From: Propionicimonas sp.
GTDB lineage: Bacteria; Actinomycetota; Actinomycetes; Propionibacteriales; Propionibacteriaceae
Assembly: GCF_029975155.1 (NCBI RefSeq)
Contig: NZ_JARKPQ010000163.1
Span: 1-36,804 of the forward strand
Direction of reading: 5' to 3'
Length of the DNA stretch: 36,804 nt
A program made the position numbers and the translations under genes. This document shows positions 12,656-16,151 of this stretch, piece after piece (within the stretch, counting starts at the first letter, position 1; every line of letters begins with the position of its first letter). The notes beneath the pieces were generated by a model. The model saw only the letters and a list, made by a program, of their open reading frames with translations, did no database searches and was not told the DNA's origin.

Positions 12656-15127
12656 TCAGGCGGGGACGATGCTGACCAGCTTCGGGGCGCGGACGATCAC
12701 CTGGCGGATCTCGCGGCCGTCCAGGGCGCGCCGGACGCCCGGATCGGCCAGGGCCACCTCGGTGAGCTCCGCTTCGGTGATCGAGGGCGGTACGTCCAGC
12801 TTGGCGCGCACCTTGCCCTGCACCTGCACGACGCAGGTCACCGACTCGGCGAGCAGCAGCGCGGGGTCGACGACCGGCCAGGACGCGTTCGCCACCGACG
12901 GCGCGTGGCCGAGCAGCTCCCACATCTCCTCCGCGACGTAGGGCGCCACCGTGCTCAGCGCGATCGCCACCGCCTCCACGGCCTCGCGAACGGCCGGATC
13001 GGCCGGACCCGCCCCGCTGTCGATCACCTTGCGGGCGGCGTTCACCAGCTCCATGATCCGGGCGACGGCCACGTTGAACCGGTGCGAGTCCAGCGACTCG
13101 GTGATCTCCGCGACTGCCTTGTGCGTGGCGCGCCGCAGCCCCAGGTCACCGGACGACGGGTCGGTGCCCACCGGGCTCGCCACGTCCTGCGCGAGACGGT
13201 AGGCCCGCTGCAGGAACTTCAACGACGAGCCCGGGGACATGTCGGCCCAGTCGATGTCGTCCTCCGGCGGACCGGCGAACACGACCGTGGTACGGATCGC
13301 GTCCACGCCGTAGGTGTCGATCTGCAGGCCCAGATCCACCCCGTTGCCCAGCGACTTGCTCATCGCCTTGCCCTGGTTGATCACCTGGCCCTGGTTCATC
13401 AGCCGCAGGAACGGCTCGGGGAAGTCGACCAGCCCCAGATCCTGGAGCACCTTGGTGAAGAACCGGCTGTACAGCAGGTGCAGGATGGCGTGCTCGACCC
13501 CGCCGACGTACTGCGCGATCGGCATCCACTTGGCCACCTCGGCCGGGTCGAACGGCCCCTCGGTGTAGCGCGGGGAGCAGTAGCGGAAGTAGTACCAGGA
13601 CGAGTCGACGAACGTGTCCATGGTGTCGGTGTCCCGCATCGCCGGGCCGCCGCACGCCGGACACTTCGTGCGCACCCAGTCGGTGGCCGAGGCCAGTGGG
13701 CTGGTGCCCTTCGGCTGCAGGGCGGCGCCGCGCAGGTCGGGCAGCGTGACCGGCAACTGGTCGTCCGGCACCGGCACCTCGCCACACGCCGGGCAGTGCA
13801 CGATCGGGATCGGGCAGCCCCAGAACCGCTGCCGGCTCAGCAGCCAGTCCCGCAGCCGGAAGGTGATCGCCGCCTCGCCGCGCCCCTCGGACGCCAGCCG
13901 CGCGGTGATCGCAGCGACGCCGGCCGCCTTGTCGGCGAGGCCCTCCAGCGCCGGCGAGTTCACGTAGGCACCGTCGCCGGGCGTGGCCACCCCGGTCTCG
14001 GCCGGGTCGGGCTGGCCGGTCTCCACGACCACGCGGACGGGCAGCCCGAACGCCTTCGCGAAGTCAAGGTCGCGCTGGTCGTGGGCGGGCACGGCCATCA
14101 CCGCGCCGGTGCCGTACTCGGCCAGCACGTAGTCGGCCGCATAGACCGGCAGCCGCTCGCCGTTCACCGGGTTGATCGCGTGCACGCCCAGGAACACCCC
14201 GGTCTTCGGCCGTTCGGACGACTGCCGCTCGATCTCACTGACCCGCTTGGTGGCCTCCAGGTACTCCTCGAACGCCGCCCGCTGCTCGTCGGTGACGATC
14301 TCGGAAGCCAGCGGCGCCTCGGGCGCCACCACGAAGAAGGTCGCCCCGTACAGGGTGTCCGGACGGGTGGTGAACACCCGCACCGGCTCCTCGCGTCCCT
14401 CGATCTCGAAGTCGACCCACGCACCCTCGGAGCGGCCGATCCAGTTGCGCTGCATGGCCAGCACGCGATCGGGCCAGTTGCCCTCGATCAGGGCCATGTC
14501 GTCCAGCAGCCGCTGGGCGTAGTCGGTGATCTTGAAGTACCACTGGGTGAGCTTGCGCTTGGTGACCACCGCGCTGCACCGCTCGCAGAGCCCCTGGACA
14601 ACCTGTTCGTTGGCCAGCACGGTCTGGTCGTTGGGGCACCAGTTGACGTAGCTGTCCTTGCGGTAGGCCAGCCCGCGTTCGTAGAAGCGCAGGAACAGCC
14701 ACTGCGTCCACCGGTAGTACTCGGGGTCGGACGTGTGCAGCCGCCGGGACCAGTCCAGGCTCAGGCCGTACCGCTTGAACGAGCGGGCCTGCGTCTCGAT
14801 GTTGGCGTACGTCCAGTCGGCCGGGTGCGCATCGCGGGCGATGGCGGCGTTCTCGGCCGGCAGGCCGAAGGAGTCCCAGCCGATCGGGTGCATCACGTCG
14901 TAGCCGCGCAGCCGCCAGTAGCGGGCGACCACGTCACCCATGACGAAGGCCTCCGCGTGGCCCATGTGCAGGTCGCCGGACGGGTAGGGGAACATGTCAA
15001 GCATGTAGCGACGCTCCCTCGAACCGTCGTCGAGCGGGGTGAAGGTGCCGTCCTGTTCCCAGAACCGCTGCCACTTCTCCTGTGCTGCGGCAGCGTCGTA
15101 GCTCCGGCGAACCTGTTCGGTGGTCAC
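12656..15127 (-). CDS. leuS: Leucyl-tRNA synthetase
   Basis: A complete 823-residue class I synthetase. The HIGH motif is HMGH (residues 54-57), with [16 protein letters not shown] and [13 protein letters not shown] around it; the KMSKS motif is AMSKS (588-592). The zinc ribbon CPNDQ...CERC, the CP1 editing domain with TTRPDTLYG and [12 protein letters not shown], and the C-terminal domain ending [12 protein letters not shown] are all present. It charges tRNA-Leu and edits mischarged products. The ATG at 15127 follows GAAGGAGAAAGACCGA. The leader upstream carries a putative leucine attenuator (peptide, hairpin and terminator), so expression is likely raised when charged tRNA-Leu is scarce. 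Downstream there are repeats and the convergent EEP gene. Confidence 0.97.
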
Positions 15128-15171
15128 TTCGGTCTTTCTCCTTCGTTCTGCACGTGTCCCGCCACGGCATG

Positions 15172-15207
15172 AAAAAGCCCCTGCGCGCCGTCAGGCTCGC
15201 CAGGGGC
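15172..15207 (-). terminator. Intrinsic terminator in the leuS leader (attenuator)
   Basis: Read on the minus strand, GCCCCT and AGGGGC pair, then GCG/CGC and GCC/GGC continue the stem to a TGAC loop, with TTTTT directly after. It lies 44 nt before the leuS start codon and after the leader peptide, so a fraction of transcripts should stop before leuS. The inner left part GCGAGCC could instead pair with GGTCGC of the preceding hairpin, which would prevent termination. Confidence 0.72.
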
Positions 15208-15208
15208 C

Positions 15209-15234
15209 GCCGCGACCGCTCAAGCGGCCGCGGC
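15209..15234 (-). promoter_or_regulatory. Leader hairpin 1 between leader peptide and attenuator
   Basis: An 11-bp stem (GCCGCGGCCGC with GCGGTCGCGGC, one G-T pair) closes on a TTGA loop. It begins within the last base of the leader peptide stop codon and ends one base before the terminator stem. A ribosome stalled on the leucine codons would cover its left arm and free the right arm, the classical arrangement for transcription attenuation. Confidence 0.65.
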
Positions 15235-15263
15235 TATCGAAGCAGCAGGAATGCGCTGTGCAC
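15234..15263 (-). CDS. Leucine leader peptide of leuS (MHSAFLLLR)
   Basis: A nine-codon reading frame GTG CAC AGC GCA TTC CTG CTG CTT CGA TAG. Three consecutive leucine codons come just before the stop and before two consecutive hairpins, the second a terminator. A possible -10 (TAGCAT) lies 6 nt before the GTG, so translation would start at the 5' end of a leaderless mRNA, a common state for actinobacterial leader peptides. Regulation of a leucine gene by such a peptide is established for leucine biosynthesis operons; its use ahead of leuS is inferred here from sequence only. Confidence 0.65.
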   Translation of the reverse strand: MHSAFLLLR

Positions 15264-15269
15264 CCTGTC

Positions 15270-15275
15270 ATGCTA
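15270..15275 (-). promoter_or_regulatory. Possible -10 element of the leuS leader
   Basis: TAGCAT on the minus strand with exactly 6 nt to the leader GTG. No good -35 is seen at 16-18 nt upstream. The rest of the 313-bp leuS-VIT gap (15276-15385) shows nothing further. Confidence 0.4.
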
Positions 15276-15440: not shown

Positions 15441-16151
15441 ATGGCCGTTCTCCAGGACACCACGATCGTCGCCCAGCAATCGCTGTCGCAACGACTGAAC
15501 TGGCTGCGCGCCGGCGTCCTGGGAGCGAACGACGGCATCGTCTCCACCGCCGGCCTGGTCGTCGGTGTCGCCGGGGCGACCACCGATTCGGTGGCGCTGC
15601 TGATCGCCGGGCTCGCCGGCATGGTGGCGGGGGCGCTCTCCATGGCCGGCGGCGAGTACGTGTCGGTGAGCAGCCAGCGGGACAGCGAGATCGCCGCGCT
15701 GCGCCAGCAGGAGGACGAGCTGGCCGCCGACCCGGACGGCAAGCTCCGCCAGCTCACCGCCCACTACGCCGAGCGGGGACTGTCCACAGAGCTCGCAGGG
15801 CGCGTCGCGGCCGAGCTCACCCAGCACGCCGCCCTCGACGCGCACGCCCGGGTGTTCCTGAACCTGGACGCCGACGAGCGGGTCTCCCCGGGCGCGGCGG
15901 CCCGGGCTTCGCTGTTCGCCTTCCTCGCCGGATCGGTCATCCCGCTGCTGGCGATGGTGACCACGCCGGCGGCCGTCCGGCTGCCGTTCACCGTGCTGGC
16001 CGTGCTCGTTGCGCTGGTCATCACCGGCTACGTCAGCGCCCGGCTGGGCGGTGCCCGGCCAGCGCGGCCGGTCGTCCGGAACGTCGTGGTCGGCAGTCTC
16101 GCCATGGGCATCACCTATCTCGTGGGCTGGCTGGTCGGCCAGCAGCTGTGA
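15441..16151 (+). CDS. VIT1/CCC1 family Fe(II)/Mn(II) transporter
   Basis: A 236-residue membrane protein with five expected helices. The family start RLNWLRAGVLGANDGIVSTAGLVVGVAGA (about 18-46) and AGMVAGALSMAGGEYVSVSSQRDSE (about 59-83) are characteristic; the cytoplasmic metal-binding helical region rich in Glu and Asp follows (84-145), then three helices. Such proteins move ferrous iron or manganese out of the cytoplasm. A DtxR-like box precedes it. ATG 15441 is the start that places LSQRLNW correctly; the ATG eight bases earlier is in another frame. Its last 41 nt overlap the end of the convergent DUF4192 gene. Confidence 0.88.
   Translation: MAVLQDTTIVAQQSLSQRLNWLRAGVLGANDGIVSTAGLVVGVAGATTDSVALLIAGLAGMVAGALSMAGGEYVSVSSQRDSEIAALRQQEDELAADPDGKLRQLTAHYAERGLSTELAGRVAAELTQHAALDAHARVFLNLDADERVSPGAAARASLFAFLAGSVIPLLAMVTTPAAVRLPFTVLAVLVALVITGYVSARLGGARPARPVVRNVVVGSLAMGITYLVGWLVGQQL

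Follow-up and report, generated by a model that had tools for sequence, protein, structure and literature searches.

The window (the whole 36,804-nucleotide stretch of Propionicimonas sp. DNA analysed here) encodes a leucyl-tRNA synthetase, LeuS. A short leucine-coding frame, a hairpin and a terminator lie ahead of its gene. This arrangement raises the question of whether leuS is controlled by translation of the leader and, if so, how a stalled ribosome would affect the terminator. As discussed below, comparison with related leaders makes leucine attenuation at leuS likely, and the route may differ from that of the familiar E. coli leaders.

Organization of the leuS leader

The leader adjoins leuS directly upstream on the same strand (Table 1). 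The leuS frame matches NCBIfam TIGR00396 (leuS_bact) with 944 bits, against a cut-off of 548. Measured from its predicted start through the last base of the U tract, the leader is approximately 92 nt long and consists of two simple hairpins and the ORF. The segment 15275-15128 has a predicted folding energy of -76.7 kcal/mol, compared with -60.0 +/- 3.7 kcal/mol for 200 shuffled sequences.

Table 1. Elements of the leuS leader and the downstream gene in the window
Feature	Position	Strand	Basis
Predicted -10 element TAGCAT, 6 nt (GACAGG) ahead of the leader start codon	15270..15275	-	Sequence; TANNNT spacing in leuS leaders
Leader ORF, GTG CAC AGC GCA TTC CTG CTG CTT CGA TAG, encoding MHSAFLLLR	15234..15263	-	Sequence; homologous leaders
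Final Leu codon (CTT), the predicted control codon; the hairpin 1 base is 5 nt away	15240..15242	-	Codon bias and register
Hairpin 1, GCCGCGGCCGC-TTGA-GCGGTCGCGGC, 11 bp with one G.U, beginning with the stop-codon G	15209..15234	-	Covariation
Terminator hairpin, abutting hairpin 1	15176..15208	-	Fold; covariation of closing pair
U tract, five T	15172..15176	-	Sequence
AAGGAG, probable ribosome-binding site of leuS	15138..15143	-	Sequence motif
leuS, leucyl-tRNA synthetase, 823 aa, GTG start at 15127	12656..15127	-	NCBIfam TIGR00396 (leuS_bact)

The first-pass annotation had described, in order on the minus strand, TAGCAT, a 6-nt spacer, a nine-codon ORF starting with GTG and containing CTG CTG CTT, and an 11-bp hairpin beginning at the stop codon; all of these can be read in the sequence. 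It had also described a 12-bp terminator stem followed by five T. The terminator and the five T are present, but there is no clean 12-bp stem: the 13 pairs are broken by a bulge and a mismatch, with a continuous base of 8 bp and an interrupted top. Generic scans for terminators and sigma-70 promoters missed both the terminator and the -10 element of the leader. On the opposite strand, divergent from the leuS leader, is a membrane-protein ORF (15441-16151), which we take to resemble a VIT1/CCC1-type transporter.

Specificity and distribution of the leader

The locus set comprises 139 leuS loci, window included. These are 30 loci from 60 related genomes, the best 80 of 588 named relatives and 29 further stretches of those related genomes. 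The first-pass annotation placed a leucine leader with a terminator at leuS, and the comparison agrees: an ORF with three consecutive Leu codons followed by a terminator is found in 56 of the 135 leuS upstream regions that span 250 bases or more (the window's among them), compared with one of 3344 control tiles of 350 bases taken from the rest of L031-L110. On this comparative evidence the leader ahead of leuS is not a chance arrangement, because to these frequencies are added the covariation of both hairpins and the match of a model built without the window (both below). A wider pattern, which also admits LxL and LL runs and scores the -10 element, finds leaders at 75 of the 139 loci. One of these (L063) was wrongly assigned by the regular expression, leaving 74; it is omitted from all counts on 74 leaders and still included in the 56, and its true element was later located by model R1.

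Two covariance models of different scope were used. Model R1 was built from 38 leaders, window included, none of which comes from a record bearing the name Streptomyces. Model R2 was built from 28 leaders with no known Propionibacteriaceae and with the window excluded; two of its rows (L056 and L093) come from metagenome-assembled genomes named only as actinobacteria. In the window's 5.0-Mb genome, R2 matches 15263-15170 (47.9 bits, E-value: 2.4e-9) and has no second match at E-values up to 10. It matches the leader in 26 of 42 sources from the family, window included, with one extra weak match at another place in L029 (E-value: 0.6).

Within the genus, R1 matches the leader in 21 of 30 genomes. 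Among the 80 named loci (the best 80 of 588 relatives) it does so in 31, in each case just upstream of leuS; many of these 80 loci trained the model, and two of the 31 matches (L090 and L102) are weak. At E-values up to 1, R1 has no match away from leuS in the 632,557 bases of the 80 named loci. All 51 loci returned by the R1 class search (30) and genus search (21) contain leuS.

At the thresholds used, R1 finds no leader in nine of the 30 genus genomes (in one of which, G023, leuS itself was not found) or in 49 of the 80 named loci (again the best 80 of 588 relatives), and the switch is therefore dispensable. The named records lacking a match include the fetched Propionibacterium, Tessaracoccus, Thermobifida, Kocuria and Microbacteriaceae; some contigs end a short distance upstream of leuS, and the lack of an R1 match does not prove that a leader is absent. 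On a tree built from 41 LeuS N-termini, the distribution implies five changes in leader status (bootstrap 3-6); the tree is poorly resolved. Judged from these searches, the leuS leader is kept in many, not all, of the actinobacteria examined. One genome (G239) encodes two different LeuS proteins, each with its own Leu leader (L191 and L192; 38% and 69% identity to the window's LeuS over the best segment).

Relationship to known leuS leaders

Candidate leuS attenuators were predicted in 2005 for Streptomyces avermitilis and Streptomyces coelicolor (Seliverstov et al., PMC1262725). In the available text of that paper, these likewise have a Leu-codon leader peptide, a hairpin and a terminator directly before leuS. 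RNA-seq of Streptomyces lividans TK24 lists leuL2, a leaderless frame that encodes MRAVRLLLSEPR and is separated from leuS by a hairpin with a U stretch (PMC8079986). The leaders are homologous: R1 recovers leuS leaders encoding MRAVRLLLSEPR and R2 recovers that of the window. Half of the loci from the R1 class search (15 of 30) encode MRAVRLLLSEPR or its S-to-T variant, and from this peptide match they are taken as Streptomyces or close kin. Because of the 2005 prediction, S. lividans leuL2 and the homology of the leaders, the window's leader is assigned to the actinobacterial leuS leaders of the Streptomyces leuL2 type; by sequence comparison it is of a kind already known. The first-pass annotation noted that the synthetase is often controlled by other means, a hint at an unusual target which the 2005 prediction of actinobacterial leuS attenuators, as given in the available text (PMC1262725), weakens.

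There are also differences. The window is from a member of the Propionibacteriaceae, as its nearest named LeuS relatives indicate, whereas the 2005 attenuators are from Streptomyces. The leuL2 peptide is 12 residues long, as opposed to nine in the window, with the hairpin and U stretch common to both; its start comes from RNA-seq, while that of the window is predicted from sequence (accessible part of PMC8079986). The stop codon is inside the hairpin in Streptomyces-type leuS leaders and at the hairpin base in the window. The available text of the 2005 paper names an antiterminator hairpin (PMC1262725), whereas no competing helix was found here. The comparison extends the Streptomyces leucine switch to the Propionibacteriaceae, Nocardioidaceae, Micrococcaceae and Streptosporangiaceae examined.

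Covariation of the hairpins

In the comparison of related genomes that the first-pass annotation had put forward as a check, aligned leaders conserve the Leu codons and both stems, with compensatory changes. Among the 38 diverse leaders, seven of nine hairpin 1 pairs change on both sides, giving 46 double-change cells compared with 9.4 in shuffled alignments (0/500 as high). The 28 leaders from outside the family show double-sided change in six of the nine hairpin 1 pairs and in nine of 16 pairs overall (44 cells versus 11.9 in shuffles, 0/500 as high).

The terminator pair nearest hairpin 1, which closes the stem, is GC in 15 of the 38 leaders, AU in 13, GU in four, UA in one and unpaired in five, with 14 double-change cells. 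In 18 of the 38 leaders the bases one step further out do not pair. In versions slid by +1 and +2, 71.1% and 69.7% of cells are paired, compared with 69.7% for the real register, but double changes are absent from the slid versions. A CCC:GGG block of the terminator is invariant in all 38 leaders. In 36 of the 38 leaders, precisely two alignment columns lie between hairpin 1 and the terminator, one of which is used by the closing terminator pair.

At position 15215 of the window, in the 3' arm of hairpin 1, 18 of the 20 leaders from the genus have a T that faces G or A. An unpaired A is found in two of the 20, and C (which would form a G-C pair) in none.

The control codon and its register

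The run of Leu codons ends in CTT in 69 of 74 leaders, in CTC in four and in CTG in one, against a background of 2.1% CTT among 3280 Leu codons counted in the fetched portions of these leuS genes; in eight ORFs of the window, CTT accounts for 8 of 399 Leu codons. A binomial probability for this bias was set aside, as it would count related leaders as independent. With the strict pattern, 71 of 74 leaders have their first stem base 8 nt downstream of where a Leu codon begins, and 68 of these 71 in-register codons are CTT. L022, L041 and L055, which the pattern does not capture, have stems with variant letters. The stop codon is less constrained in position, at two, five, six or seven codons past the control codon (48, 19, 1 and 3 of 71, respectively). 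In part of the genus the middle Leu is replaced (SLEL, SLDL, HLQL, ELKLL) and CTT stays in register.

Judged by established ribosome footprints, a ribosome with CTT in its A site would reach approximately CTT+12 and would shield some five bases at the 5' end of hairpin 1. CTT is likely to be the sensor codon, because it is conserved in a fixed register and an A-site stall would cover the hairpin base. A substitution of one Leu of the run by Glu, Asp, Lys or Gln, with CTT kept in register, was observed in eight loci (L013, L015-L018, L020, L022 and L029).

Predicted transcription start

A TANNNT motif is present 6-8 nt ahead of the start codon in 54 of the 56 leuS leaders, which had been picked without a -10 criterion; L063 is one of the two exceptions. 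The motif is 9-11 nt ahead in one of the 56, and nine occurrences are found at 12 nt. Transcription probably starts at the leader GTG, at approximately 15263, such that the leader ORF would be leaderless. This start is supported by the spacing and by the reported leaderless S. lividans leuL2, and the leaderless frame put forward in the first-pass annotation is thus probable.

Search for an antiterminator

In the leu and trp leaders of E. coli, control codons are in a short ORF just before a hairpin and terminator, and a 2:3 antiterminator excludes the terminator when it forms. The E. coli leu leader uses rare Leu codons. The window differs from these leaders in that no antiterminator was found and its leader is predicted to be leaderless. 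The first-pass annotation had proposed a comparable switch, in which stalling of the ribosome would release the hairpin 1 3' arm to pair with the 5' half of the terminator (GGTCGC:GCGAGCC). This helix can be drawn as 4 bp, a bulge and 2 bp. Of 20 sequences from the genus, 17-20 retain its 4-bp core, and pairing is seen in 82.5% of cells, compared with at most 48.3% in slid versions. The outermost pair, however, is broken in 16 of the 20, and covariation is no higher than in shuffles, with every measure within the shuffle range. Pairing of the freed arm with the terminator 5' half and loop in 68 leaders (including L039, for which the terminator arm was wrongly parsed) has a mean of -2.4 kcal/mol, compared with -4.0 when the loops are shuffled and -3.1 when they are swapped. 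Because shuffling destroys structure within loops, swapping is the fairer control; the real loops pair less with the freed arm than the controls in all 2000 draws of each. GGTCGC:GCGAGCC is rejected as a conserved helix on these three grounds, and a switch operating through it is unlikely. The loop comparison suggests that terminator loops are kept from competing with the freed arm.

With the RNA masked to CTT+12, each of the 69 leaders folded still prefers the terminator to structures with a free 3' arm, by a margin of 5.1-17.8 kcal/mol (median 12.4). Among the leaders examined, hairpin 1 is present and covarying, and no helix that would exclude the terminator was found.

A second candidate, the slid helix GGCCGC:GCGGCC, came from the folding of masked RNA and was also rejected. 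It shows no covariation in the genus. In the 38 leaders, 50.4% of cells pair, compared with 53.6% when the helix is slid by one, and there are 13 double-change cells versus 5.3 in shuffles (14/500 as high), a signal that is weak and unspecific.

Proposed mechanism and alternatives

The segment 15275-15172 (minus strand) is predicted to be a leucine attenuator in which a shortage of Leu-tRNA leads to a stall at CTT, an open hairpin 1 base and likely read-through into leuS; we place the probability of this reading at roughly 0.8. The steps would be as follows. A ribosome would translate the MHSAFLLLR ORF and, when short of Leu-tRNA, would stall on CTT and keep the base of hairpin 1 open. Hairpin 1, abutting the terminator and stacked on it, may aid termination, such that opening its base would weaken the terminator. 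RNA polymerase would then likely proceed into leuS, resulting in more LeuS. A direct effect of stacking between the two hairpins is proposed because no competing antiterminator helix was found, and it is for the same reason that we infer the step from stall to read-through. A more specific form of this model is possible, if doubtful: actinobacterial leuS leaders would be a distinct attenuator design with no antiterminator, in which a single rare CTT 5 nt from the hairpin base is the sensor, a stall opens the base and breaks the stacked hairpins, and the same chassis serves cimA (with Ile codons) and ilvB (with Ile-Leu-Val codons). The fixed register of CTT and the unsupported antiterminator go beyond what is described in the available parts of PMC1262725 and PMC8079986. 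The pattern is one of a near-invariant rare CTT in hairpin register with no sign of the textbook antiterminator, and if read-through depends on CTT, these leaders would represent attenuation by a simpler route.

Alternatively, the leader and terminator could keep leuS transcription at a constant low level, or aid translation, with no response to leucine. Such a role would fit the failure to find an antiterminator in the leaders folded and paired, the loss of the element from part of the genus and family with several changes on the tree, and a result cited in the available text of PMC1262725, in which swapping possible control codons of the S. coelicolor ilvBNC leader reportedly had no effect. 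It would leave unexplained why Leu codons, and CTT above all, stay in one register relative to the hairpin across widely separated leaders, and why R1-matched leaders contain Ile codons where the gene is cimA and Ile-Leu-Val codons where it is ilvB, such that the codon fits the pathway; we consider it quite improbable. T-boxes have been predicted at actinobacterial ileS genes (available text of PMC1262725), and a T-box or other metabolite-binding RNA might be imagined at leuS too. A leader of this length, made up of two simple hairpins and an ORF, speaks against such an RNA, as does a search of Rfam 15 in which no family reached its gathering score anywhere in the window, and this explanation is extremely improbable. 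Attenuation through the CTT codon is the reading preferred here.

Related leaders upstream of ilvB and cimA

A further 40 places, most of them second or weak matches from the R1 class search, divide into 15 at leuS (the window again among them) and 25 elsewhere. Six of the 25 were compared with NCBIfam. Two are acetolactate synthase genes (L194 and L201) and three are citramalate synthase genes (L209, L211 and L219), all above the cut-off; the sixth (L214) encodes a threonine ammonia-lyase-like protein and is below the cut-off. The leaders at these non-leuS genes have Ile-Leu-Val or Ile codons.

Actinobacterial ilvB leaders, including S. lividans ilvL, have the same layout of short leader, hairpin and abutting terminator, as far as the accessible parts of PMC1262725 and PMC8079986 describe them. 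They differ from the leuS leaders in their Ile-Leu-Val codons and target gene, and their R1 matches are weaker than those at leuS. The window's own genome has, by eye, an Ile-Leu-Val leader encoding MRKFILVVSQRVG before ilvB (L264; G000:C397, minus strand), which resembles S. lividans ilvL.

A leader with an Ile run followed by a terminator is found in 44 of 61 cimA upstream regions (L195, L207, L209, L211-L213, L215, L216, L219-L222 and L231-L282), compared with one of 651 control tiles. After removal of duplicates (L195/L238, L213/L249 and L216/L265), this becomes 41 of 58 distinct places, nine of which (of the 58) were reached through R1 alone. The same pattern finds no Ile-run leader at cimA in the window's genome (L263). 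A literature search for an Ile leader at cimA, mainly among papers outside subscription journals, listed PMC13158618 and no other paper. The cimA leader peptides include MLHHGIIIN and MHYGLLIIGRRAG, and each reading frame is followed by a hairpin and abutting terminator. At the threonine ammonia-lyase-like gene, the predicted leader peptide is MTVHEMAIT, in which ATT occupies the register of CTT and a hairpin and terminator follow.
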